Assembly: GCA_937859745.1 (NCBI GenBank)
Contig: CALMAQ010000133.1
Span: 1-35,579, forward strand
Source of the DNA: an uncultured Verrucomicrobiota bacterium
Lineage (GTDB): Bacteria; Verrucomicrobiota; Verrucomicrobiia; Chthoniobacterales; SZAS-18
Direction: 5' to 3'
Length of the DNA stretch: 35,579 nucleotides
Shown: in pieces, positions 1 to 30,306 of the stretch
How the letters are laid out: every line of letters starts with the position of its first letter
Numbering within the stretch: the stretch's first letter is position 1
Notes under the pieces: generated by a model
Seen by the model: the letters and a program-made list of their open reading frames with translations, nothing else
What the model was told of the DNA's origin: nothing
Databases searched by the model: none
Position numbers and translations under genes: made by a program

Positions 1-1
1 C

Positions 2-376
2 CCCGCCGCTCCTCCTGCTCCCCCCTCAAGCAGCGGTGCGCCAAGCAATCCCATCTCTTCGGCGGGCGGCACGCCCGTAGTCATGCCTCCCCAGACGCCA
101 AACCATCCGTGGCGCGCCACCGGCGCGTCAGCGGTGGGAACGCCCCCCGCGCCCGCGACTTCCACGGCATCCACGAGCACCGGCGGCAGCACGATGGCGG
201 GCGGCACGACGGCTGCCGGCTCCCGGGGCGGAGGCCCCTCCGCCGCCGGCAGGAAGAACGTGCCGGCTGCCGGGGGCACCGTGGACACCTCACTCGACGG
301 GGAAGTCGCCCGTATCATCGACTTCGACACCGGCAAACCGATCACGAGTGATTCGCTGCCGAAACCGGGCAACTAA
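2..376 (+). CDS. C-terminal tail of a TrbL-like conjugation protein (5' end outside window)
   Basis: An open frame enters from the left edge and stops at the TAA at 374-376. The visible 124 residues are almost entirely Pro, Ala, Ser, Thr and Gly, with a short ordered end containing FDTGKPITSD. No domain can be recognised. The assignment rests on position: trb operons of the Ti-plasmid type run trbL-trbF-trbG-trbH-trbI, TrbL/VirB6 inner-membrane proteins often carry a long low-complexity C-terminal tail, and a TrbF-like gene follows 31 bp downstream. It could instead be another low-complexity transfer protein. The in-frame ATG at 83 is not a convincing start, because the same composition continues upstream of it. 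Confidence 0.45.
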   Translation, partial: PAAPPAPPSSSGAPSNPISSAGGTPVVMPPQTPNHPWRATGASAVGTPPAPATSTASTSTGGSTMAGGTTAAGSRGGGPSAAGRKNVPAAGGTVDTSLDGEVARIIDFDTGKPITSDSLPKPGN

Positions 377-407
377 CCATTTCGCTCCAAAGTTTTCGTC
401 CCCCATC

Positions 408-1088
408 ATGGACCCTGTTCCTACCGCCACTCTCTACGAACACGAGATCACCGACACGCTGCCGGCGGCACCTGAACCGGCCTTCCGCCGCCGCTCGCTC
501 GATCCCACGAAAATCTTCGTGGATAAGGACCGCACGGCGCTCCTCTGGTTCTTCGTGGCCGTGGCCGGCGTCGGCGTGGCCGTGGCCGAGCCGTTCTTCC
601 TCGTGCCCGTGCTCAAGGCACGTGAGCGCGTCGTGGTCGTCGACCCGAGCAACACGTACTTCGTTTCCCCCACCCTGGAGTTCGAGGAAGCCTCCGCCCT
701 GCACACGGCGCAGGCCCGGCTGGCCGCCGCCGCGTTCCTGGAGCGCAACCCGGAAAGCTTCGACAACAAGGAGCTTCTCCAGCGCCTCTTCGGCAAGACG
801 GCGCTCCAGGCCGCTTACCTACAACAGACCAAGGCGCAGGAAGAATTTCGTGGCAAGCAGATCCACCAGAAGCCCGAGGTGGCCGAGGTGACGATCCTCG
901 AAACCCGCAGCGACTTCGTGCTCTGCCGCGTGCGCGGCCAGCTCATCCGCGCGGGCATCTTCAACGACCGGCCGTTCACGGAGGCGCTGCCCTTCACGCT
1001 TTCCCTCAAGATGCTGCGCAACCCCGACATGCTCTCCAACGCGCGTTTTCCCACCGTGGTCAGCGCCTTCCGCTACGACGAGAAATGA
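408..1088 (+). CDS. trbF: TrbF/VirB8-like conjugal transfer protein
   Basis: This 226-residue protein has the layout of TrbF/VirB8, a bitopic inner-membrane scaffold of conjugative type IV secretion. A short cytoplasmic N-terminus is followed by one membrane helix at about residues 44-66 (LLWFFVAVAGVGVAVAEPFF) and a periplasmic domain of about 155 residues matching the NTF2-like VirB8 fold in size. I chose the ATG at 408; a GTG at 348 would add 20 residues that overlap the previous gene. The stop overlaps the next start (ATGA), so translation is probably coupled to the TrbG-like gene. Sequence similarity in this family is weak, so the call leans on topology and on the TrbG and TrbI neighbours. 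Confidence 0.7.
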   Translation: MDPVPTATLYEHEITDTLPAAPEPAFRRRSLDPTKIFVDKDRTALLWFFVAVAGVGVAVAEPFFLVPVLKARERVVVVDPSNTYFVSPTLEFEEASALHTAQARLAAAAFLERNPESFDNKELLQRLFGKTALQAAYLQQTKAQEEFRGKQIHQKPEVAEVTILETRSDFVLCRVRGQLIRAGIFNDRPFTEALPFTLSLKMLRNPDMLSNARFPTVVSAFRYDEK

Positions 1089-2020
1089 CCCGACGACCCT
1101 TTCCCCTGCTTTTGTGCGTCGCAACCCTGGCGCTTGGCGCCGCTCCCGGCCAGGTCGATGCCGCGCCTGAAAACCCTTCGATCCGTAATTACCCCTTGGA
1201 CGAGTATTCCGTGCAGACGATCCCCGTCTCGCGCGACACGGTGACTACCGTCAGCTTTCCCGGCCCCATCACGGCCATCCAGGGCAGCCGGTTTACGACC
1301 GGCGGCGGGCGACAGGACCTTTTCCAGGTCGATTACAATAAGGGCAGTTACTTTCTGTCCCTGCGCACCCTGGAGCGCGGCGCGCGGGCGAACCTCAACG
1401 TGGTCTGGAACCACAAGACTTACGTGCTCGACGTGGTGGACAGCACGGAGCCGGTGCTCTCGGCCATCTTCGTCTACGGCGGCGTCAAGGGGCGCGCAGC
1501 CTCGCCGGCGGCCGTCACGCCCAACCGGCTTTTGGGCATGATGGACAAAGCGAAATCTTTCCCATTGCTCGCCGCCAACTATCCGCAGGCGGTCGCCGAC
1601 GTGGAAGTGGCCAAGCCCGGCACGCCGACCGACTACCCGCAGTTCGTCGTGACGGTGGACGAGGTGTACCGCTTCCCGCAGGCCGACACGCTCGTCTTCC
1701 GGCTGACCTTCAAGAACAAGACGGCGGAGACCGTCACCTACGCGCCCAATTTGCTCGGCATCCGCGCGGGCGACCTCGTGTACACCAACGCGATCAGCGA
1801 CGCCAGCGGCACCATCCCGCCCAACGGCACCGAGCCGGCTTACATCGCCATCACCGGCACGCCCACCGGCGGACGCAATGACCTGAGCGTCAAGAACCCC
1901 TTCTACGTGGTCGTTTCCTCGCCCGCGCCCGCGCCCTCGCTCTTTCCCGCCCGCAATGACGGCAACGGCAACTCGCGTGGGGACGGCAAATCGGTCGTGG
2001 CTCCGCTGCCGCGTCGATAA
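1085..2020 (+). CDS. trbG: TrbG/VirB9 (CagX family) outer-membrane core complex protein
   Basis: The 311-residue protein begins with a signal peptide (LLLCVATLALGAAPGQVDAA, cleaved near residue 27). An all-beta VirB9/CagX-type region follows, containing SFPGPITAIQGSRFT, VDYNKGSYFLSLRTL and TYVLDVVDSTEPVLSAIFVY. TrbG/VirB9 is periplasmic and links TrbI/VirB10 to the lipoprotein in the outer-membrane core of the secretion channel. The last 35 residues are a Pro/Ala/Asn/Gly-rich tail. The start overlaps the stop of the TrbF-like gene by four bases, which places it in the same operon. TrbI follows after a 35-bp gap. The family is fairly clear, although the central part (about residues 130-280) is divergent. 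Confidence 0.78.
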   Translation: MTRRPFPLLLCVATLALGAAPGQVDAAPENPSIRNYPLDEYSVQTIPVSRDTVTTVSFPGPITAIQGSRFTTGGGRQDLFQVDYNKGSYFLSLRTLERGARANLNVVWNHKTYVLDVVDSTEPVLSAIFVYGGVKGRAASPAAVTPNRLLGMMDKAKSFPLLAANYPQAVADVEVAKPGTPTDYPQFVVTVDEVYRFPQADTLVFRLTFKNKTAETVTYAPNLLGIRAGDLVYTNAISDASGTIPPNGTEPAYIAITGTPTGGRNDLSVKNPFYVVVSSPAPAPSLFPARNDGNGNSRGDGKSVVAPLPRR

Positions 2021-2055
2021 CCTATTAGTCTAATACCCTTCCTTCTTTTTTCGGG

Positions 2056-3228
2056 ATGAACCCGCGCAAGATCGTCGTCTTTTTCAAAACCCCTACGGGC
2101 AAGCTCCTGGGCTTTCTGGTGCTCTTCGGCCTGGGGCTGGCGTTTGCCGGCACGGGTCTCAAATCCTGCCGCCGCGACGCGGGCGAGCTGACCACGCGCA
2201 TCACCAAGGCGACAGGCATTGCCGGCCCGGTCAAAACCACGGAACCCATGGTGCCTTTTGATCCGAAGCCCACGCCGGGACCCGCGCCGAGTCCGATGTC
2301 CGCGCCGGTCGTGGCCGAAGCCACGCCGACACCGACCCCAGGCGCGCAGAAGATGCAGATCCCGCCGCTGTCGTTGTATTACAACGCGCCCCCGGAAGGA
2401 GCCGAGGACGAAACGACGGTGGTCTCGGAAAACTACGCTCCTTTCGGCCGCCTGTTGCAATGCAAGCTGGTCGTCACGGTAGATAGCTCCTCCATCCGCA
2501 CGCCCATCATCGGGCTCGTCACCGAGGACCTCTGGCACGATGGCCGGCTCATCGTGCCCGCCGGCACGGAAATCCACGGCCAGGCGCGGCTTGACCGGAT
2601 GCGCGAGCGCATTGCCTCGGAAGGCGAATGGACGCTGGTTTGGATGAGCGGGCTCGAACTGCCGATTTCCGGGCTGGCGCTCGACCTGGAGAAAAAGACC
2701 GACGGCACCTTCGAGATCACGGACGGCAGCGCCGGACTCAAGGGCGACATCCTGCGCGCCGACAACACGGCGGAACTCAAACTCTTCGCGGCCACATTTC
2801 TCTCTGCCGGTTCGCGTGCGTTTATCAACACGAACGACAACAATCTGCTGGGTGTGCCGGTGGCGCAGGCCACGGCCAAGACGGCGGCGCTCGCGGGTAC
2901 GAGCAGCGTGCTCGACCAATACTCCGCGCAGATCCTCGACTCGATCAACCGAGACGGCGTGTACGTGCGCGTGCCTGCCGGCAAAGCGTTCTACGTGTAC
3001 GTTACCCAGACGCTCGACGTGGGCAAAGCCACGGTCGGCAACGTGGCCGTGGCCAAGCGCGAAGCCGAGGCGCAGCGCCGCGAGAACCAGGGGCTTTCCA
3101 GTGGCGGCTCACGGCGCGGCGAAGGCGCGGCCGGTGAGATCGAGCGCCTGCGCGCCTCGCTCCTCAACGGCGGCGGACTGCCGCGCACCAATACCGGTCC
3201 CACCCTTTCCACAGAACTCTTCCGATGA
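2056..3228 (+). CDS. trbI: TrbI/VirB10-like conjugal transfer protein
   Basis: This 390-residue protein has the canonical VirB10 order. A short cytoplasmic N-terminus is followed by a membrane helix at about residues 17-35 (LLGFLVLFGLGLAFAGTGL), a Pro/Thr/Ala-rich periplasmic linker (about 57-97), and a C-terminal beta-barrel domain (about 130-345). Barrel signatures are DGRLIVPAGTEIHGQARLD, an antenna-like helical stretch near SRAFINTNDNN, and the terminal strand GVYVRVPAGKAFYVYVTQTL. VirB10/TrbI spans both membranes and gates the secretion channel. The tail is polar and Gly/Ser-rich. Its stop overlaps the start of the next gene (ATGA), so they form one operon. In most trb operons the TrbH-like gene lies before trbI; here the lipoprotein gene follows. 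Confidence 0.85.
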   Translation: MNPRKIVVFFKTPTGKLLGFLVLFGLGLAFAGTGLKSCRRDAGELTTRITKATGIAGPVKTTEPMVPFDPKPTPGPAPSPMSAPVVAEATPTPTPGAQKMQIPPLSLYYNAPPEGAEDETTVVSENYAPFGRLLQCKLVVTVDSSSIRTPIIGLVTEDLWHDGRLIVPAGTEIHGQARLDRMRERIASEGEWTLVWMSGLELPISGLALDLEKKTDGTFEITDGSAGLKGDILRADNTAELKLFAATFLSAGSRAFINTNDNNLLGVPVAQATAKTAALAGTSSVLDQYSAQILDSINRDGVYVRVPAGKAFYVYVTQTLDVGKATVGNVAVAKREAEAQRRENQGLSSGGSRRGEGAAGEIERLRASLLNGGGLPRTNTGPTLSTELFR

Positions 3229-3902
3229 AGATTGCCGCTTCGCTCCCGAACTCTTTCCTGTTGTGCTGCGTCTCACTAGCCAGCCTCGCGCTGTTCGGTG
3301 GGTGTGCCTCCCATCCCAAAACGGTGGTGGTGTCCCCACTGCCGCGTGATGTGCCGGGGACCACACTCTCCAGCGACGGCATCGAGAGCGTGCGCTACGC
3401 CGAGAACATCAAGGCGTACCCGGTCAACCGCTATGTCGATCCCGCCAACCGCGGCGTCATGCACGAGGGCCACACCATTTACCGCGTGGAAACCAGTGCG
3501 CGTTGGAATTTGCGTCCCAACCAGCCCGTCGCCGTCCCGCTCGGGCCAACCGTGGCTGTCCGCGGCAACCCGGCGACTCATCCTGGTCCCTTGCCCGGCG
3601 AACTCGCGGCCGAGTTGACGCGCCAGAAGGAGGCGACCCGCACAGTGATCGCGCAGGGCGAACGTCTCGGCGGCAGCATCGACCGACTCCAGGGCGCGCT
3701 CAACCAGACGGCCGCCATGGCGCAGGAGCAGCAAAGGATGCAGGCCGATCTCACCCGGGCGCAGGGACGTATCGAGCAGCTCGAAAAGGAGCGTGTGGAG
3801 CGCACGTCCTCGGGCGGCACCGTGGACTTGCCCGCGACGCCATCGCCCCTGCCCAAGGCAACGGCGGACGGACAGAAGCCTGACAACTTCGAGTCGCCCT
3901 GA
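3225..3902 (+). CDS. TrbH-like lipoprotein with coiled coil
   Basis: The 225-residue protein has a lipoprotein signal peptide ending in LFGGC, with Cys27 as the predicted lipidated residue, so it should sit in the outer membrane. The middle contains short extended segments (NIKAYPVNRYVDPANRGVMH and a Pro/Val-rich stretch near 100-110). Residues of about 120-190 are rich in Gln, Glu, Arg and Ala with heptad spacing (LTRQKEATR, QQRMQADLTRAQGRIEQLEK) and are probably a coiled coil. The last 30 residues are disordered. A lipoprotein is expected in the core complex as the TrbH/VirB7 partner of TrbG, and the ATGA overlap with trbI supports that role. Sequence alone does not prove homology to TrbH. 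Confidence 0.6.
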   Translation: MKIAASLPNSFLLCCVSLASLALFGGCASHPKTVVVSPLPRDVPGTTLSSDGIESVRYAENIKAYPVNRYVDPANRGVMHEGHTIYRVETSARWNLRPNQPVAVPLGPTVAVRGNPATHPGPLPGELAAELTRQKEATRTVIAQGERLGGSIDRLQGALNQTAAMAQEQQRMQADLTRAQGRIEQLEKERVERTSSGGTVDLPATPSPLPKATADGQKPDNFESP

Positions 3903-3974
3903 AATCGGTGCGCAGCGCCAACGCTCTCCTCGTTTTAACCGCAGCCCACACCAGAGACCACGCATCCACCCAAC

Positions 3975-4205
3975 ATGCCCCAAGCCTCCGCACCCGACAC
4001 GATCCAGGTCACTTTCGACCTCGACCGGAAAACTTTCGACGACTTCAAGTCTGCCCGTGATCAGTGGGAGGAATCCTTGGGCATTGTGCCTGACGTGGGC
4101 TGGCTCCTGGCGTTTGCCCTGCAAACAACTGATCCCATCCAGACCATTGAGGTCGCTGACGAGATGGTGCTCGACTACCTGCGCAACCGCATCTCGCTTC
4201 CCTAA
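3975..4205 (+). CDS. small acidic protein of unknown function in the transfer operon
   Basis: This 76-residue protein (start MPQASAPDTIQVTFDLD) is not recognised. It has an N-terminal strand-like segment (IQVTFDLDRKTFDDFKSARDQW) reminiscent of the beta-strand plus helix seen at the start of ribbon-helix-helix-type proteins, followed by an amphipathic helix near the end (ADEMVLDYLRNRI). No signal peptide or membrane helix is visible. It starts 72 bp after the lipoprotein gene and ends 14 bp before the next gene on the same strand, so it is probably co-transcribed with both. A plasmid accessory or regulatory protein is possible, but this is only a guess. Confidence 0.55.
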   Translation: MPQASAPDTIQVTFDLDRKTFDDFKSARDQWEESLGIVPDVGWLLAFALQTTDPIQTIEVADEMVLDYLRNRISLP

Positions 4206-4219
4206 AGAAAACGCCTTCC

Positions 4220-4702
4220 ATGCAACGCAAACCGACCCCCGCGCAGAACGCCTCCGATGCAGACGGTGCCCGTGTCGACGCCGCCGAGACCTCGGGCTCG
4301 AAGTACCGCACCAACCCGCAGGTGGAAGCCGACCTGGCCGACTGGCGCGAGCGCAACCCCAAGCAGGTCGAGTACGTCAAAAGCTTGCCGCGCGAGCGGC
4401 TGGAGAATAGTTATTCTTTGCGGCTCATGCGCGCCGAACGCCAACGCGAGGCGGCGCGCGAAGCCATCGCCAGCCGGTTCATGGCGGACGAACCGCTCCT
4501 GCAAGCCTACATGGTCCGCGCGCAGAAGCTCGCCAGCAAAATGAACCTGGGCGCGGGAGACGAGGCGCAGATCAAGTCGGCGGCGCTCGACCTTTTCCTG
4601 AGCGACCGGCGCAGCAACGCGATTACGGCACGCAAACTCGGTCGCAGCCAGCAGCAAGGCACCGGGGAGAAAACGTCATCGCCGAGCCGGATACGCCCAT
4701 AA
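4220..4702 (+). CDS. small basic helical protein of unknown function
   Basis: The 160-residue protein is predicted to be mostly helical and highly charged, with Arg, Glu and Ala repeats (LRLMRAERQREAAREAIASRF, about residues 68-90). A disordered N-terminus of about 35 residues precedes it, and a Gln/Ser/Lys-rich end follows. There is no membrane segment. The block YRTNPQVEADLADWRERNP looks like an ordered conserved core. I do not recognise the family. It lies 14 bp behind the 76-residue gene, so it is likely the last member of the transfer operon. The next 255 bp contain no gene but hold a structured repeat. Confidence 0.55.
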   Translation: MQRKPTPAQNASDADGARVDAAETSGSKYRTNPQVEADLADWRERNPKQVEYVKSLPRERLENSYSLRLMRAERQREAAREAIASRFMADEPLLQAYMVRAQKLASKMNLGAGDEAQIKSAALDLFLSDRRSNAITARKLGRSQQQGTGEKTSSPSRIRP

Positions 4703-4774
4703 ACGGCGGAGCCGCCGCCAAGAGGGCGGCTTGACAGATAGGTGGCAAGGGGCCAGCCGTTCTTCACAGTCGGC

Positions 4775-4920
4775 CTGCCTTTGGCGTTCAAGGCAACGCC
4801 AATCGCCTTGAGCTTTGTCCGTGCCGGGCTCCGGCGACCGGCAGGCGGCTGCCGCCACTCTCCTGTGAATAACGGGAAGAAAGCCCGCGCAACGGCGCGT
4901 CGCCAAGCCCGGCACAAAGC
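4775..4920 (+). repeat. copy A of a dispersed structured repeat upstream of the DUF72 gene
   Basis: This intergenic stretch is collinear with the reverse complement of 18822-18916. Blocks shared at the same or nearly the same spacing are aatcgcc (4801), an identical 18-mer gctttgtccgtgccgggc (4812-4829), ggcgacc (4833), ctgccgc (4849) and gaataa (4867). A hairpin ggcgtt/aacgcc with a 6-base loop (4783-4800) corresponds to a hairpin of different sequence in the other copy. A second hairpin, ggcag/ctgcc, lies at 4840-4853. Bases 4906-4920 can pair with 4812-4830 apart from a 4-base bulge, giving a long stem. Both copies face the same way relative to the gene behind them. Function unknown. Confidence 0.7.
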
Positions 4921-4957
4921 GACGGACAAAGGTCCGAATGTGGACGAAGTTGCACGC

Positions 4958-13495: not shown

Positions 13496-16400
13496 CTATG
13501 CCGCCATCGCCGGCCGCAGCGAGGCGGCGTTGCCGATCTGCTCCCCTTGCCTGATCTCTTGGCTGACCGCCTGGGTCGCTGACGTTGCCGTCGTTTCCTC
13601 CGCCGCGCCGTCTTCGCGCTGGGTGCCCGCCTGGTTCTTGGTGAGATCGAGCGCCTCGACGATCTCCTGCTGGCGCGCCGTGGCGGCCATGAGCTTGTCC
13701 TCGTACTCGAAGGCCACGCCGACGTGGCGACCGAGTTCCTCGCGCTTGCGCTGGTGATCGGCGAGTTCCTCCGCGCGTCCCTCCAGACGGCTTTCGATGC
13801 TCTGGAGTTCCCGTTCCATCGAGGCGACCGTGCCGAGCGCGTTCTCGCTGATGTACGCCTCGTGGTCCGCCTTGCCTTGGATGATGACCTTGGCACTGCC
13901 ATCCAGCTTATGGATCGAGAACGGGAACCCACCGATTTCCCCGAGGGGATGGGTCGTGGTAAACGGCCGCATGGACTCCGCGAGGAACACCAGAGCGCGG
14001 CCCGCCTTCACGCGGTCGGTGAAGGTCTCCTTCTTGAGTTTGAGCACGAAGCGGTCGCCCTGGGTCGGCACGCGCGCCGCCAGATCGAGCCGCAGGTTAG
14101 CCATGACCCGCTCGCAATGCTCAATGCTCTCGCCCAGGCTCCTGAGGCGGTAGCGCACCTGGTACTGGCTGTCGAGGTGCTGCTTCTTGAGCCGGGTCAG
14201 CCGCGCGACCTCGGCGTCCACGCCTGCCTTTTCGATCACGAGCGGGTTGCCCGACGCGATGGCCTTGACCTCGGCGTAGGTCAGCGCCGCGGCGTCCACG
14301 TCCTCCGCGCGGCGCACGGCGGCGTCACCGTTCATCACCTGCGCGATGAAGCGGCATTTGTTCTCCAAGGTCTGCCACATGTACGCGTCGAAGCTGCCCT
14401 CCGTCACGTAGCGGTAGATGCTCACGAACTCGTTCTGGTTGCCCTGGCGCACGATGCGGCCCTCGCGCTGCTCGATGTCCGCCGGTCGCCATGGAGCGTC
14501 GAGGTGGTGCAACGCCGCGAGCTTGCGCTGCACGTTGGTGCCCTCCCCCATCTTCGGAGTGCTGCCCAGAAGCACCCGGACCTTTCCTTCACGCACGGCC
14601 TTGAAGAGCGTGTTTTTGGCAGCATCGTCATCGTAGTCTTGGATGAAGGCGATCTCCTCACGGGGCACGCCCCGAGCGACGAGTTTCGCGCGCACGTCGT
14701 CGTAGACGTTGAACTGGCCGCGGCTCCCCGCCGAAGGCGTGGACAAGTCGCAGAAGACCATTTGGGTGCCTTTGGTCGGGGTGGTTTTCTCCCAGATGCG
14801 GTGGACGTTGGCCACTGCCTGGTTGACCTTGGAATCCGGGTTGTCGGGGAGGTGCGGCACCATGAGCCGCAGGTCGAGCGCGGCTTTACGCCCCTCGCTG
14901 GTGATTTTGAGCATGTTGTCCTCGCGCGGATCGACCCGCCCATTCTTGATGTCCTCGGTGCGCGCCACCAGGTTTTCCACGAAACGCTTCAACTCCGGGC
15001 TGGCTGGGGCACTGAGGGTGACCGGCCTGCCTTCTTCGAGCTTCGGCACCGGCAGCTTGAGCATCTCGGCCGTGCGCACGTCGGCCACCTGGCGGAACTG
15101 ACCCATGAGCTCAGGCACGTTGACGAAGCGCGCGAAGCGGGTCTGGAGCCGGTAGCCGCGGCCGTCGGGGCTCAGTTCCATGGAGCTAACGGCTTCCCCG
15201 AACGTGGCCGCCCAGGAATCGAAGTGCTGCATCTGGTTGCGGCGCAACGTGTGCATTTGCAGGTAGCGCTGCATGGTGAACATCTCCGCCATCGTGTTGG
15301 AGATCGGCGTGCCCGTGGCGAACACCACGCCCCCACCCTGATTGCGCTCCTGGATGAACTGCACCTTCAAGAACAGGTCGAACGCGCGTTCGCTGGCAGT
15401 CTGCGGCAGGCCCGCTACGCGGTTCATCTTGGTGACGTAAAACAGGTTCTTGAACTTGTGGGCCTCGTCCATGAAGAGCCGGTCGATACCCAGTTCCTCG
15501 AAGGTGAGCGTGTTGTCCTTGCGGTGGCTGGCGGAGAGGGTTTCCAGCTTGGCCTTGAGCTTCTTCTTGATGCGTTCGAGTTCCTTGACCAGCCGCGTGC
15601 CGCGCTGCGCGCCGCGGTCCTGGCGGATGGCCAGTTCCACCTCGCGGATTTGGCTTTCGATGAAGCGGGTGCGCGAGTCGAAGGACATTGGGATTTTCTC
15701 GAAACTCGCATGGGTGACGATGACCCCGTCCCAGTTGCCCGTGGCGATGCGGCTAAAAAGTTGGGCGCGCTTGGAGGCCTCGAAGTCCTCCTTGCCAGCG
15801 ACCAGGATGTTGGCGGTGGGATAGAGGGTCAGCAGTTCGCTGGCGAACTGTTCGAGCATGTGGTTGGGCACGACGAACATGGGCTTCTGCGCCAGACCCA
15901 GGCGCTTGAGTTCGATGCCGGCGGCGACCATCGTGTAGGTCTTGCCCGCTCCCACGCAGTGGGCCAAGAGCGTGTTGTCGCTCTGGACCACCCGCCAGAT
16001 GCCGTCCTTCTGGTGTGGACGCAGCTGGATCTGCTCGCTGCTAGAGGGCAAGGTCAGATGGCTGCCGTTGAAGACCCGCAGCCGCGTGCTGTTGAACTCC
16101 GCGTTGTACTTGGCCGAGAGCCGTTCGCGCCGCGCATCGTCCTCCCACAACCACGTCTTGAAGCGTTCCTTGATCTTTTCGAGTTTGTCACGGGCGGCTT
16201 CCGTTTCCGGCACGTTGACGACCGGCTTTTCCGTCAGCGGGTCTTTGTCGTAGACCGTGGGCGTCTTGAGGTTGAGCGCGTCCTGGATCAGGTCGAGGGC
16301 GCGGTAGCGCGTGGTGCCCCAGTCCGTCGTGTTGGCGACCGAGGAACGCGCCTCGTAACCCGACTCCACGAACCACGCGCCGACCTGTGGCGCATGGGAG

Positions 16401-18697
16401 ACGGTGATCGCCCCACCGTCTGGCACGATGGCATGGGCGAACTCCTCGATGTCTTTGGGCGGAATCCACACCGCCCCCAAGCGCGCGTCGATCTCGCTGG
16501 CGCTCAGATCCTCGGGTTGCACCGCCTCCAGCGCCACGACGTTTTCCCGGTAGGCGGGGTCGCTCGCCGCCGCGGCCTGCGCGCCGGCAAGTTTCAAGCG
16601 CACGTTGCCGGAGAGGTACTGGTCCTCGGTCTCGTAGGCGTCGCTCTGCGGGTTGCGGTAGAGCAGACTTTTGAGTTCCGGCAGGAACGCTTCGGCAGGC
16701 CGTCCGAGCAAACCCTCCATGTGCCCCAGATCGACGCGGCCCGTGGCGTTGAGGGTGAGCACCAGCGCATCCTGCGCGCTCTCGGCCGCGCGCGGGGCCT
16801 GAGCTTGGTGGATGGTGCGCTCGGTGAAAATGGCGGTCTTGGTCGCCCGCTTGGATTCTTCGTCGTAGTTTTCCAGCGAGCGCAGCAGCGGGAAGTCCGG
16901 GTCCCCGCGGAACGCGCGGGCGTTGGCCAGGTCGTTGACGGGACCGAAGCGCACGATGAACTGGTCGTAGCGCTCGTCCAGGCGACGGCGGGCGAGCAGC
17001 ACGTCGCTTTCGTCCGTGCCGTCGAGCTGAGTGCGTAGGCACTCACGCACGGCATCCCGCAAACGGATCAGCCCGCGGACGCGCCGCGCGCCATCCTCCG
17101 AAAGCTTGGCGACCGGCGTCAGCACGCCGCCCGAGCGGATCGCGATCCGGCCGTCTTCCAAGGTCGTGAAGGCATTCTCCTTGACGTGCTCGGGGGCGAG
17201 AATCGGCTGTTCCGCCGCTCTGACAGCCACACCCGCCGAACTCATGGCCGCTGTCTCGATACGCACTACACCTTCGGGCAAGGAGGCAATGGCCTCGCGC
17301 AAAGCCACCGCCAGATCGCGCCCGTCCGGGGCGAGCGTCGGCTCGTTGGCGCGGTACATCGTGCCGGCGTTGCGCATGGTGCCCAGCATCATGTGCGGGT
17401 TGGCCGCGAAGTATTCGTTGATCTGGAAAGGGACGCCGTCCGCGTTGCGATGCTCAGCCAGGTCCAGCCACGCCGGGCCTTTCGGCCGTTCGCCGATGCC
17501 CAGCCGGCGCAGGAACACGATGTCGGTCGTCACCTCCGTGTTCGCGTTCTGCTTGAAGGCGGTGTTCGGCAGCCGGATGGCTCCCAGGAAATCGGCACGC
17601 TCGGCCAGATAGCCGCGCACGGCAGAGTTGAGCTTGTCCAGAGTGCCTTTCGACGTGATGAACACCACGAGGCCGCCGGGGCGCACCTTCTCCACGCTCT
17701 TGGCGAAGAAATAGTCGTGGATCAGGAAACGGCGGTCAGCCAGTAGCGGGTCGATCGGCCGGTAGTCACCGAAGGGCACGTTGGAGATCGCCAGATCGAA
17801 CGCGCCATCCATCAGGGCGGCGCGCTCGAAGCCTTGGGCACGCACGTCGGCGTCCGGGTAGAGCTTGGCCGCGATGCCGGCGGTCACCGGGTCCAGTTCG
17901 ATGCCGGTGAGCTTGGAGCGCGCGTGCATCTCCTCCGGCATGAGGCCGAAGAAGTGGCCCAGGCCCACGGCGGGTTCGAGTACCCGCCCGCCGGTGAACC
18001 CCAGCCGCTCGACGGCGTCGTACATGGCGCTGACGACCGCCGGAGCCGTGTAATGAGCGTTGAGGGTCGAAGCGCGCGCGGCCTCGTACCGCGCGGGCGT
18101 GAGCAGCCGCTCGATGGTTTGCCGTTCCTCGCGCCAGTCGGAAGCGTCCGGTTCCTGCCAGGAGGCGAACACCTGCGGGATGCCGCCCCAGCCCACGTAG
18201 CGCACGAGCACGCGCTTTTCCTCGTCCGTGGCCGGGCGCGCCTCCCGGTCGAGGAGCCGAGAAAGTTCGATGGCGGCGAAGTTATCGCGCGTCTTCTGCT
18301 TGAGCGAGCCCGAGCCGACGAGGCAGCTCACCTCCGCGTCGAAGCGGAAGTTGGCTGCGTTTAGAGGGCGACGCCCGGCTCCGGCTCCAGGAGAATATAT
18401 TTCTCCCGGGTCAACTCCCACGCCTGCGTCTCCGCCTGCTGCTCCGTCAAGCCCTCCGTCTTGAAGCGGCGGTAAAGCGTTTCCATTTCTTCGATCGTCC
18501 GCTCCTGCGCCTCCAGGAGTGCTTCCTCCAGCTTGCCCTGCGCTTCCAGGCGGCGCACCATCTTGGGCCGGAACTGTCGCCAGTGGCGCTCGGCCATCAA
18601 TCCGTACTGGGTCAAAGAGGTCTCGGTCATACGTGGTGGCTGCTGCCTCCTGCGGGTTGGTCGCAAAATCGAAGAGGTCGAGTTGCCGGTCGGCCAT
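13496..18697 (-). CDS. DarB-like N6-adenine methylase fused to SNF2-type helicase
   Basis: A protein of about 1733 residues with an N-terminal adenine methyltransferase. Motif I is LEPAVGLGHFFGL (about 240-252). The catalytic motif is SNVPFGDY, in the NVPF form typical of this family rather than NPPY. A superfamily 2 helicase follows, with HCVGAGKT (Walker A, about 915), FMDEAHKFKN (about 1075), FATGTPISNTM, GSTPKMGEGTNVQ and QREGRIVRQGN (about 1410). The C-terminus is coiled (REELGRHV region). This order is known from phage P1 DarB, a protein packaged to protect DNA against restriction, and from ICE and plasmid relatives. If the ATG at 18697 is the start, residues 5-9 read QLDLF, a canonical beta-clamp-binding motif. 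However, the next 270 bp overlap a second coding frame, so the real start is uncertain; GTG codons at 18421 and 18331 are alternatives. Confidence 0.88.
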   Translation of the reverse strand: MADRQLDLFDFATNPQEAAATTYDRDLFDPVRIDGRAPLATVPAQDGAPPGSAGQAGGSTPGGAGADDRRNGNALPPLQDGGLDGAAGGDAGVGVDPGEIYSPGAGAGRRPLNAANFRFDAEVSCLVGSGSLKQKTRDNFAAIELSRLLDREARPATDEEKRVLVRYVGWGGIPQVFASWQEPDASDWREERQTIERLLTPARYEAARASTLNAHYTAPAVVSAMYDAVERLGFTGGRVLEPAVGLGHFFGLMPEEMHARSKLTGIELDPVTAGIAAKLYPDADVRAQGFERAALMDGAFDLAISNVPFGDYRPIDPLLADRRFLIHDYFFAKSVEKVRPGGLVVFITSKGTLDKLNSAVRGYLAERADFLGAIRLPNTAFKQNANTEVTTDIVFLRRLGIGERPKGPAWLDLAEHRNADGVPFQINEYFAANPHMMLGTMRNAGTMYRANEPTLAPDGRDLAVALREAIASLPEGVVRIETAAMSSAGVAVRAAEQPILAPEHVKENAFTTLEDGRIAIRSGGVLTPVAKLSEDGARRVRGLIRLRDAVRECLRTQLDGTDESDVLLARRRLDERYDQFIVRFGPVNDLANARAFRGDPDFPLLRSLENYDEESKRATKTAIFTERTIHQAQAPRAAESAQDALVLTLNATGRVDLGHMEGLLGRPAEAFLPELKSLLYRNPQSDAYETEDQYLSGNVRLKLAGAQAAAASDPAYRENVVALEAVQPEDLSASEIDARLGAVWIPPKDIEEFAHAIVPDGGAITVSHAPQVGAWFVESGYEARSSVANTTDWGTTRYRALDLIQDALNLKTPTVYDKDPLTEKPVVNVPETEAARDKLEKIKERFKTWLWEDDARRERLSAKYNAEFNSTRLRVFNGSHLTLPSSSEQIQLRPHQKDGIWRVVQSDNTLLAHCVGAGKTYTMVAAGIELKRLGLAQKPMFVVPNHMLEQFASELLTLYPTANILVAGKEDFEASKRAQLFSRIATGNWDGVIVTHASFEKIPMSFDSRTRFIESQIREVELAIRQDRGAQRGTRLVKELERIKKKLKAKLETLSASHRKDNTLTFEELGIDRLFMDEAHKFKNLFYVTKMNRVAGLPQTASERAFDLFLKVQFIQERNQGGGVVFATGTPISNTMAEMFTMQRYLQMHTLRRNQMQHFDSWAATFGEAVSSMELSPDGRGYRLQTRFARFVNVPELMGQFRQVADVRTAEMLKLPVPKLEEGRPVTLSAPASPELKRFVENLVARTEDIKNGRVDPREDNMLKITSEGRKAALDLRLMVPHLPDNPDSKVNQAVANVHRIWEKTTPTKGTQMVFCDLSTPSAGSRGQFNVYDDVRAKLVARGVPREEIAFIQDYDDDAAKNTLFKAVREGKVRVLLGSTPKMGEGTNVQRKLAALHHLDAPWRPADIEQREGRIVRQGNQNEFVSIYRYVTEGSFDAYMWQTLENKCRFIAQVMNGDAAVRRAEDVDAAALTYAEVKAIASGNPLVIEKAGVDAEVARLTRLKKQHLDSQYQVRYRLRSLGESIEHCERVMANLRLDLAARVPTQGDRFVLKLKKETFTDRVKAGRALVFLAESMRPFTTTHPLGEIGGFPFSIHKLDGSAKVIIQGKADHEAYISENALGTVASMERELQSIESRLEGRAEELADHQRKREELGRHVGVAFEYEDKLMAATARQQEIVEALDLTKNQAGTQREDGAAEETTATSATQAVSQEIRQGEQIGNAASLRPAMAA
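18361..18630 (-). CDS. small TnpV-like helical protein overlapping the methylase-helicase 5' region
   Basis: The 89-residue frame MTETSLTQYGLMAERHWRQF continues with helices rich in Glu, Ala and Leu (LEEALLEAQERTIEEMETLY, TEQQAETQAWELTREKYILL). Its codons nearly all end in G or C, as in genuine genes here. In the same stretch the overlapping large frame has mixed third positions and a Gly/Pro/Ala-rich translation. The opening YGLMAERHW pattern resembles TnpV-type small proteins of mobile elements. I consider this frame translated. How the large gene starts is then an open question: it may begin inside or just after this gene, overlap it, or be translated through coupling or frameshifting. Confidence 0.65.
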   Translation of the reverse strand: MTETSLTQYGLMAERHWRQFRPKMVRRLEAQGKLEEALLEAQERTIEEMETLYRRFKTEGLTEQQAETQAWELTREKYILLEPEPGVAL

Positions 18698-18816
18698 AAT
18701 CATTGAGGAAAACAGCCTTCTCTTCAAGGCCGCAACCGCTAACAGATTTTTGTACACCAATTTTACAGGGGAACGATCTCGCAGCCTCGGAACTCAATGG
18801 ACAAGTAGGACGAGCG

Positions 18817-18931
18817 GCCACTTATTCTTGCAAGGTCGCGGCAGCGCCGTGGTGGTCGCCCGGGCCCGGCACGGACAAAGCCGGGGCGATTCGCGCTTGA
18901 GCGAAAACCAGGGTTGCGGGAAATAAGTGGC
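18817..18931 (-). repeat. copy B of the dispersed structured repeat, bounded by 10-bp inverted repeats
   Basis: Read on the minus strand, 18891-18822 matches 4801-4872 collinearly, including an identical 18-mer (18864-18881). This copy is enclosed by gccacttatt (18817-18826) and its exact complement aataagtggc (18922-18931). The hairpin ttcgc/gcgaa with a 6-base loop (18890-18905) stands where copy A has ggcgtt/aacgcc. It lies about 120-230 bp upstream of the methylase-helicase start, pointing toward it. It may be a leader RNA, a small non-autonomous mobile element or a protein-binding array. Confidence 0.7.
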
Positions 18932-19447: not shown

Positions 19448-19531
19448 TTCACGTTGTCCGAAGCCGAGGACCACGTTGAGCGGAGTGCGCAGTTCGTGGC
19501 TCATCCGCGAGAGAAATTCATCAAGACCCGC
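19448..19531 (-). pseudogene. fragment of a histidine kinase dimerisation domain
   Basis: In one minus-strand frame, 19454-19522 encodes DEFLSRMSHELRTPLN and then VVLGFGQ, the phosphoacceptor H-box of HisKA kinases with its His intact. Homology stops immediately on both sides: the frame upstream runs out of the end of the molybdenum-subunit gene, and downstream it becomes Pro/Cys-rich nonsense. It is therefore a remnant of a lost kinase gene. The rest of the 19292-19623 gap shows nothing recognisable. Confidence 0.75.
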
Positions 19532-27130: not shown

Positions 27131-27170
27131 GGGGTCCACGTAGAAAACGGACTATAAAGCACGTTAAGGT
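27131..27170. repeat. left terminal inverted repeat of the Tn3-family element
   Basis: Forty bases beginning ggggtccacg; 37 match the complement of 30267-30306. It interrupts the SDR gene. Confidence 0.93.
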
Positions 27171-27285
27171 GATGGGAGGTTGTTTTTCGTCCATCGTCCC
27201 AGGGTTCATCCATCAGCGGTGAGCGGAGCGTTTTCATGGAAGGCCTCCTGTCCAGTTCAGCATCTGCATGAAAGCTGGTAGTCAT

Positions 27286-27307: not shown

Positions 27308-30273
27308 ATGCCCCGCCGTACCATCTTCTCCGACACCGAACTCGCCAGTTTGCTCACCCTGCCCGACACAGAGGCAGAAGCGATCCGCCGCTACACCTTC
27401 AGTGACGCCGACCTTGCGATCATCTCACAACACCGTGGCCCCGCCAACCGCCTGGGCTTCGCCGTACAACTCTGCTACATGCGCTACCCGGGTGTCGTGT
27501 TGGCTGCTGGTGACACGCCGTCGACATCGCTTCTGCGGCTGGTGGCGGCGCAGTTGAAGCTCCCGCCGGAACACTGGGCAGCCTACGGCAAGCGGGAGCA
27601 GACCCGCCGCGAGCACCTCGTCGAACTGCAAACGGTGTTTGGGTTTCGACTGTTCGGCAAGCGACACTACCGCTCCGCCGTGCATGGCCTCGAAGAACTG
27701 GCATGGCAGACCGACAAAGGCATCGTGCTGGCGGGCGCGTTGGTTGAGAGCCTCCGCCAAAGAGCGATCCTACTGCCGACCCCGTCCGTCATTGAGCGCA
27801 TTTGCGCTGAGGCCATCACGCGCGGCAACCGGCGGATCTACCGTGTGCTCAATGAGTCGCTCGTCAACGCGCACCGGCGGCGCTTGGATGGCTTGCTCGA
27901 ACGCAAGGAGGGCAACAAAAAGACGCAGCTTCAATGGGTGCGCCAGTCGCCCGGGCGGCCGAACTCACGTCACATGCTCGAACACATCGAGCGCCTCAAA
28001 TATTTGCAGGCGGTCGATCTCCCGGACGGGATCGGGCGCAGCCTGCACCAAAACCGTCTGCTCAAGCTCGCCGCGAGGGCGGCCAGATGCGTGCGGCTGA
28101 GTTGGCCAAGTTCGAACCGCAACGCCGTTACGCCACGCTGGTTGCCTTGGTGGTCGAAGGTGTCGCTACCGTGACCGACGAGATCGTTGACCTGCACGAT
28201 CGCATCCTGGGTCGGATCTTCAATGCGGCCAAGCAACGTCATCAGCAGCAGTTCCGGAAAGCCGGTAAAGCGATCAATGACAAGGTTCGCTTGTACAGCA
28301 AAATCGGTCGAGCGTTGCTAGAGGCACGGCAGAGCGGCACGGATGCGTTCGCGGCCATCGAATCGGTGATCCCGTGGGAGGCGTTTGTCGCCAGCGTGAC
28401 CGAAGCGCAAACGCTCGCGCCCTCGGACGACTTTGACTACCTGCCCCGGGTGGTGGACAGCCATGCCATGGTGCGCCGCTACGCCCCGGCTTTCTTGGCA
28501 GCCTTGGACTTCAGCGCCGCGCCGGCCGCGCAGGCAGTGCTCGACGCCGTAAGCGCGCTCCGGCTGATGTATGCCAGCAGCTATCGGTTGCTACCGGCAG
28601 ACGCGCCGACAGCCTTCATCAAAAAGCGTTGGGAGAAGCTGGTGTTCACCGTTGGTGGCATCGACGTGCGCTTCTACGAGATCTGCGCGCTGTCGGAACT
28701 TCGCAACGCTCTGCGCTCGGGCGACATCTGGGTGCGTGGCTCGCGTCAGTTCAAGAACTTCGAGGAGTACCTGCTGCCACCGACGAGCTTTACCGTTCTG
28801 CGCCGATCCGGTCCGTGGCCGCTCGCTGTGGCTCCAGACTGCGCCGAGTACCTTCGTGAACGGATGGAACTGCTCAGCCTGAAGCTGGAAACCACCGACG
28901 CCTTGGCGGCAACAAACGATCTGCCCGACGCCATCGTCACCACTTCCGGCTTGAAGATCACCCCGCTGGACGCGGCGGTGCCGGAGGCTGCACAAACGCT
29001 GATCGACCAGTGCGCGGGCCTGCTGCCGCACGTGAAGATCACTGAAGTGCTCCAGGAGGTAGACGGCTGGACGGACTTCACGCAGCATTTTACCCATATC
29101 AAAAGTGGCGAGACGGCTCGGGACAAAACCTTGTTGTTAACCGCCGTCCTCGCGGACGCGGTCAACCTCGGCTTGAGCAAGATGGCGGAGTCGTGCCCCG
29201 GCACGACCCACGCGAAACTCTCGTGGCTACAGGCGTGGTACATCCGTGATGAAACGTACTCGGCGGCGTTGGCAGAACTGGTCAACGCGCAGTTCCGCCA
29301 GCCTTTCGCCGTGCATTGGGGCGAGGGCCTCACTTCTTCCTCGGACGGGCAGCGCTTCAAGGCGGCGAGCCGCGCCGAGAGCACCGGCCACATCAACCCG
29401 AAGTACGGCACGGAACCCGGGCGCATGTTCTACACGCACGTGTCCGACCAGTACGCGCCCTACCATGCCAAGATCGTCAACGTCGGCGTGCGCGATGCGA
29501 CCTACGTGCTCGACGGTCTGCTCTACCACGAGAGTGACCTGCGCATCGAAGAGCACTACACCGACACCGCCGGCTTCACCGACCATGTCTTCGCGCTGAT
29601 GCACCTGCTTGGCTTCCGCTTCGCTCCTCGCATCCGCGACCTTGGCGAGACGAAACTGTACACACCGGCTGACGGCAGGCAGTTCCCGGCGCTTGCCGCG
29701 TTGGTTGGCTCTCCTCTCAACCTCAAGGTGATCCGCGCGCATTGGGACGAAATCCTGCGGCTCGCAGCCTCCATCAAGCAGGGTACGGTCACCGCCTCGT
29801 TGATTCTTCGCAAGCTCGGCAGCTACCCGCGCCAGAACAGCTTGGCCGTCGCCTTGCGAGAACTCGGACGCATCGAACGCACGTTATTCATCCTGGACTG
29901 GCTCCAGAACGTGGAACTGCGCCGGCGCGTCAACGCCGGCCTCAATAAGGGCGAGGCGCGAAACGCACTGGCCCGCGCCGTGTTCTTCAATCGCTTAGGT
30001 GAAATCCGCGACCGCAGCTTTGAGCAACAGCGTCATCGTGCCAGCGGCCTGAACTTGGCGACGGCGGCCATCGTGCTCTGGAACACGGTGTACCTGGAAC
30101 GGGCGGTGCGTGCGTTGCGGCGGCACGATCAGAAGTTGGACGAGGCGCTGTGCAAGCACCTGTCGCCGCTTGGCTGGGAACACATCAACCTGACGGGCGA
30201 CTACGTCTGGAAGCAGAACCGCGTCGTCGGACCGGGAAAATACCGACCGCTTCGACCTCTCCCCATACCTTAA
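27308..30273 (+). pseudogene. tnpA: Tn3-family transposase with a one-base deletion
   Basis: The gene reads as a normal transposase of about 988 residues in two frames. The N-terminal part (MPRRTIFSDTELASLLTLPD, with the DUF4158-like domain) runs to about 28070. There LAREGGQM is expected, but the sequence has ctcgccgcgagg, one C short, and homology continues in the next frame ([20 protein letters not shown]). The catalytic domain is complete: [26 protein letters not shown] and [13 protein letters not shown] supply the D, D and E. Stop at 30271-30273. Unless the base is a sequencing error, the element cannot transpose on its own; frameshifting is not expected, since there is no slippery run. 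Confidence 0.93.
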
Positions 30274-30306
30274 CGTGCTTTATAATCCGTTTTCTACGTC
30301 GGCCCC
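30267..30306. repeat. right terminal inverted repeat of the Tn3-family element
   Basis: Complement of the left repeat with three mismatches. The tnpA stop codon (30271-30273) lies inside it. Confidence 0.93.

Follow-up and report, generated by a model that had tools for sequence, protein, structure and literature searches.

The window analysed in this study, a stretch of 35,579 nt from an uncultured Verrucomicrobiota bacterium, carries two copies of a repeat that belongs to an apparently undescribed and uncatalogued family of multibranched structured repeats of about 100-124 nt, confined, as sampled, to one order of Verrucomicrobiota. The family has one conserved fold upheld by compensatory change, and its members are discrete units dispersed to non-orthologous sites, with homology ending at the outer stem P1. 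They occupy sites within or next to mobile elements that are unrelated to one another, often shortly after the stop codon of a gene. Among the explanations considered, we favour a mobile repeat that is non-autonomous, depends on its structure and hitchhikes on genes of mobile genetic elements (MGEs) at their 3' ends, and give it about an even chance of being correct.

Copies of the repeat in the window

The full unit of copy 1 occupies positions 4757-4875 on the forward strand (119 nt) and scores 94.5 bits under covariance model R1, built from seven copies with both window copies included, and 78.0 bits under model R3. Copy 2, with the ends CCACTTATT and AATAAGTGG, lies at 18818-18930 on the reverse strand (113 nt; 105.9 bits under R1 and 98.8 bits under R3). 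The corresponding R3 E-values of about 3e-18 and 8e-24 apply to copies that are both within the training set of that model; unrelated sites of the window reach at most 13 bits. An 18-mer common to both copies (GCTTTGTCCGTGCCGGGC; 4812-4829 forward and 18864-18881 reverse) and its flanking blocks were located where an earlier note on this DNA had placed them. The repeat proposed there is real, but its extent had been drawn too small: the intervals 4775-4920 and 18822-18891 are replaced by 4757-4875 and 18818-18930, and past 4875 nothing of the element core is present but a degenerate fragment in inverted orientation. This fragment, directly after copy 1 (4899-4934, reverse strand; matches of 17-18 and 13 bp, 89-92%), scores 12.3 bits under R3, which is below threshold as a model match. 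Taken alone, the shared 18-mer is barely unusual in a GC-rich window of 35 kb: when the window was resampled 40 times under a first-order Markov model, 2 resamples contained an inverted exact match of at least 18. The full-length similarity of both window copies is beyond chance. Copy 1 comes after a conjugation region (TrbI), and copy 2 adjoins a 1754-aa helicase/methylase-like protein. By their geometry, the two inverted copies might be the ends of a 14-kb mobile element.

Several other features were met in the window. The region to the left of copy 1 (1-4702) is conjugation-like, with a TrbI domain at 2056-3228 and Fic, DUF932 and penicillin-binding-like genes, and looks like part of a conjugative element. 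The 1754-aa protein (13496-18760) shows ResIII/SNF2/helicase-C and weak methyltransferase similarity; its matches to DISARM DrmD and to BrxHI-type helicases are partial and fall far short of the curated cut-offs. A second dispersed repeat of about 65 bp (19453-19520) has matches of 83-87% at seven places in two congeners, G001 and G002. A pair of 48-bp inverted repeats (27131-27178 and 30259-30306; 88% complementary, core AAAACGGACTATAAAGCACGTTAAGGT) flanks an open reading frame at 27934/28087-30273.

Conserved fold and covariation

The consensus fold consists of an outer stem P1 of about 15 pairs and an inner stem P2 of 7 pairs, all seven with double changes across the family, which encloses the helices P3 (5-9 pairs) and P4 (about 10 pairs, a 5-nt bulge, then 3 pairs closing a loop of 3-4 nt); a small P5, predicted in copy 1, is located on the 3' side, between the 3' strands of P2 and P1. 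In copy 1, on the forward strand throughout, P1 is formed by 4757-4769 and 4863-4875 in 5+7 pairs (CCGTT.TTCACAG / CTGTGAA.AACGG) and P2 by GCCTGCC at 4773-4779 with GGCAGGC at 4840-4846. P3 follows as a hairpin at 4781-4802 (TTGGCGTT / AACGCCAA), P4 as a hairpin at 4803-4837 with a conserved bulge TTTGT (4814-4818) and the triloop TGC (4822-4824), which reads GCA on the complement strand, and the predicted P5 as a small hairpin at 4847-4856. Most of the shared 18-mer sits within P4. The lowest-energy fold predicted for copy 1 has P1-P5 on both strands and with both RNA and DNA parameters, with DNA z-scores of -5.3 and -6.3; for copy 2 the DNA z-scores are -2.1 on the strand read in the earlier note and -3.7 on the complement.

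In the alignment A3, made by sequence alone, 29 of 40 pairs showed changes on both sides, and the covariation score was 0.466 vs 0.187 in shuffled and at most 0.108 in slid controls, the fold being somewhat favoured in this comparison by its definition after the A3 sequences had been looked at. The alignment A5, with 30 copies fitted to R2, a covariance model with corrected structure, showed double changes in 33 of 40 pairs; these amounted to 258 cells vs 86 in shuffles, a level of covariation reached by none of 500 shuffles. Pairing in A5 was 91.2% vs at most 47% when slid. Compensatory differences in P1, P3 and P4 also distinguish copies L065 of G002 and L068 of G000, the genome of the window, whose flanks are homologous over the 28 bp preceding and the 8 bp following the element and in further upstream blocks. 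The variable hairpin of the earlier note (ggcgtt/aacgcc vs ttcgc/gcgaa) corresponds to helix P3, which covaries across the family and differs most between the two window copies, and the selection on structure suspected there gains support from many further copies and strong compensatory change. The letters changed but the shape was retained, so it is the shape that appears to be functional.

Template-switch correction is known for imperfect palindromes, and the covariation might in principle be a mutational by-product of DNA palindromes, in which template switching matches the arms and no structure is selected. The perfect P3 hairpins of some copies would agree with such a process. We consider it highly unlikely, however, as asymmetric features persist (the 5-nt bulge of P4, the internal loop of P2 and a bulged T in P1), letters of the loops are conserved, and the nested long-range pairs of P2 covary too.

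Distribution of the family

A pattern search revealed more copies in G000, the 401-contig assembly to which the window belongs. Covariance models applied to this and to related genomes, as the earlier note had proposed, found further copies with covarying stems. R1 recovered nine further copies outside its training set in three genomes of the genus, and its matches at E up to 1 numbered 8 in G000, 2 in G001 and 7 in G002; the weakest match of G000 (L074, 21.6 bits) was not counted as a member, which gives 7-8 copies in this genome, and L075 (15.9 bits) was likewise treated as a non-member. The R1 search gave no convincing match in other genera of the same family. Of 213 genomes from 45 genera of the order scanned with R2, 17 had matches; they belong to 8 genera, the seven further ones carrying single or few copies each. 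R3, applied to 388 genomes sampled evenly across the phylum, matched in G000 only. The genomes are mostly fragmented MAGs, and the copy and genome counts are lower bounds because the large scans scored 9-17 candidates per genome. Element length across the family is about 99-124 nt, and copy number is low, from 1 to 8 per genome.

No Rfam family matched above its gathering score, and plasmid and phage records contained no match to the element. A first pattern search of viral contigs found nothing; a site met with a second pattern (L164) has flanks without the element and was judged by eye to be a chance match. A literature search at the level of titles and abstracts found no description of the element.

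Boundaries and genomic context

In four pairwise comparisons (L056/L058, L056/L062, L061/L058 and L061/L062) the match spans the element and stops within about one base outside it, and for GACTTG-ended copies at non-orthologous sites the similarity stops at the element edges. No conserved sequence was seen outside P1, the flanks showing a tendency to CC before and TC(G) after the element, and no direct repeats or target-site duplication were visible at the edges of 30 copies. Genome G057 has two inverted doublets, with their 3' sides facing and about 70-90 bp apart; copies are otherwise solo. The idea of an intergenic dispersed, mobile-like unit, raised for the window copies, is thus borne out by further copies with sharp homology edges at the outer stem.

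The surroundings of the copies include several types of mobile elements. In genome G059 an IS3-family element (L121, 701-2208), delimited by the points at which several further copies in that genome start or break off, carries the repeat at 2003-2111, between the transposase stop at 1966 and the right end and about 100 bp inside the latter; other copies of this IS have lost the folded unit partially or completely (L153, L154 and L162). At L129 and L131 the repeat lies after the stop of an IS481-like transposase (27.1 bits, below cut-off) and about 10 bp inside the right end, with matching inverted IS ends, read from the sequence, outside the folded unit. The element starts 12-37 bp after transposase stops. 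At three loci of G002 homology begins at the 5' edge of the element and runs into a unit coding an RHH-like protein, an HTH-like reading frame and a tyrosine recombinase, of which the element forms the exact left edge. In G000 (C80) and G002 (C202) the repeat follows, by 10 and 18 bp, a mobC-like gene beside MobA/MobL, and these MobA/MobL genes are the only PF03389 matches of the two genomes. PIN/VapC-like, Gp49/HigB-like, AbiEii, PD-(D/E)XK, topoisomerase and integrase genes were found near other copies, toxin-antitoxin and Trb conjugation genes close to some, and an IS200-like reading frame, identified by eye, 1.8 kb from the copy of L129; some neighbour gene names were read by eye from the sequence. 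The association with MGEs carries no p-value because there is no background rate of MGE genes for such genomes.

These positions might also be explained if the repeat were a functional end part of certain MGEs, i.e., a transposition or transfer signal or an insulator close to the right end, acquired by unrelated elements via recombination. The placement of copies inside the right ends of the IS3 and IS481-like elements and at the left edge of the recombinase element would suit such a role, but solo copies are common and IS copies with the unit deleted exist. Since these IS copies lost the unit by deletion, it may be dispensable, and we regard an end-part role as improbable. An IS-borne copy may simply be part of that IS.

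Two further sequences were observed near element loci. A dispersed repeat of about 330-430 bp (L076 6811-7238, L077 and L078) stands upstream of two copies of the element; at a third it is inverted and 2.3 kb away. A related IS3 element in G057 (L156, C11, 1600-1760) carries, at the corresponding place after its transposase stop, a different imperfect palindrome that may be distantly related to the element.

Gene orientation and strand preference

Gene orientation was assessed for 28 copies with a predicted gene, called by a simple gene caller, within 600 bp on the 3' side. The 3'-side gene was on the same strand in 14 cases and on the opposite strand in 14, an even split that is incompatible with a shared leader role and with it the leader RNA proposed earlier. 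A leader RNA or a protein-binding site common to the DUF72 and methylase-helicase genes is accordingly extremely improbable: both window copies do stand before same-strand genes, but these genes are unrelated, and they are incidental neighbours of the repeat. The 5'-side gene ended towards the element in 20 of the 28 copies (8 opposite), which suggests insertion or retention after stop codons.

The same preference would be expected of a structured non-coding RNA or a 3'-UTR module that MGEs carry to protect or control their own transcripts, e.g., as a bidirectional exonuclease block, a terminator or a protein-binding hairpin. With this would also agree the short distances to the preceding genes (12-37 bp after transposase and 10-18 bp after mobC-like stops), the fold predicted on both strands, and the multibranched architecture with its conserved bulge and loop, which resembles many RNA families. 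The polarity of the element varies, however, being sense after transposases and antisense after mobC-like genes; the window copies have no U-run or promoter-like site; and the few G.U pairs, the lack of conservation beyond P1 and of an Rfam match also count against an RNA. We therefore treat this explanation as a realistic one that is nonetheless less probable than not to hold. An intrinsic terminator was rejected, as no U-run follows the stems at the window copies.

The strand read in the earlier note contains 39 A.C cells vs 18 G.U cells, and A.C on this strand equals G.U on the complement. The complement was predicted to fold more stably, as DNA and as RNA, in all four copies tried. Its P4 loop is GNA in about three quarters of the copies and GNNA in a few; loops of both types stabilise DNA hairpins. 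The share of G.U pairs is low on either strand (1.6-3.5%), which leans to DNA. A choice of strand from the G.U and A.C counts is informative, short of decisive; the bias is modest, owes part of its size to inheritance among related copies, and agrees equally with RNA. Hence the complement is a likelier candidate for the folded strand than the strand read earlier, and single-stranded DNA is somewhat more likely than RNA to be the folded form.

Relation to known repeats

One of the closest analogies is offered by the attC sites of integrons, which are about 60-140 bp long and are recognised as a folded strand. Like attC, the element is a folding site beside single genes, toxin-antitoxin genes included, with structure conserved more than sequence, and its length and hairpin character are similar. 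Integron integrases above the curated cut-off occurred in 8 of 17 element-bearing vs 0 of 14 control genomes, a comparison that has no base rate from element-free members of the order. Yet the fold is multibranched, core sites of the form RYYYAAC ... GTTRRRY were found at the ends of 0 of 30 copies on either strand, and the copies form no tandem cassette array beside intI, being solo or in inverted doublets. No copy shares a contig with an above-cut-off integrase, and the true attC array of G002 (ends GCCTAAC...GTTAGGC) differs in sequence and is unmatched by R3. With these true attCs of the same genus as control, identity with attC was rejected, and an attC site, or a relative recombined by the integron integrase, is a very improbable explanation. 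The element may still act like attC in being recognised by shape. The G002 array itself (L167 8973-12384, C229) is a genuine integron array, with at least seven attC sites and an integron integrase close by.

Like the element, REP, BIME and REPIN sequences are palindromic units dispersed between genes and close to gene 3' ends, which occur singly and as inverted doublets, the latter seen in G057. REPs (PMC3733652) are 20-40 bp long, bear the tag GTAG or CGTC at one foot and are linked to RAYT (Y1) transposases. They are single hairpins, usually in many copies, whereas the element is multibranched and present in 1-8 copies. CGTC occurs one base further on after the element in few copies only, and no REP-type tag was seen. 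REP identity was rejected on the length of 99-124 nt and the missing GTAG/CGTC tag.

MITE-like repeats such as ERIC and NEMIS resemble the element in being about 100-150 bp long, palindromic, dispersed and free of open reading frames. Unlike them, its termini are conserved by pairing more than by sequence, and no target-site duplication was seen at its edges. P1 amounts to a terminal inverted repeat, and among the insertion sequences met in this analysis no parent with those ends came up. Insertion sequences that target attC sites or palindromes are known (the IS1111-attC group and IS1397), and they too give an IS next to a palindromic element; here, in contrast, the element lies inside the IS ends and not at the point of IS insertion.

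Proposed mechanism and significance

Beyond the fold and the distribution of the family, which are shown here, we infer that the repeat is mobile and that one of its strands is recognised. In the favoured explanation, a structure-dependent hitchhiking repeat, it would be a non-autonomous selfish or hitchhiking element tolerated only in places after stop codons. It would spread by riding insertion sequences, mobilisable and conjugative elements, and moves of its own are also probable. A single strand exposed during transfer, transposition or replication would fold and be recognised by a putative trans-acting protein. No partner enzyme and no gene common to all element loci was found, the tyrosine recombinase occurring in one genome only. 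We suggest tentatively, as a rather unlikely prospect, that the family represents a new class, either a structure-recognised single-strand recombination or transfer site or an MGE-borne non-coding RNA, which unrelated mobile elements share and which a putative dedicated trans-acting protein would serve.

Large covarying folds outside Rfam that recur on unrelated mobile elements are rare. If single-stranded DNA is the form in which the fold is read, the family would supply a signal for recombination or transfer that differs from attC and REP; if the form is RNA, several mobile elements would have taken up a non-coding RNA. The consensus fold and the covariance models make the element directly testable in a little-studied phylum.
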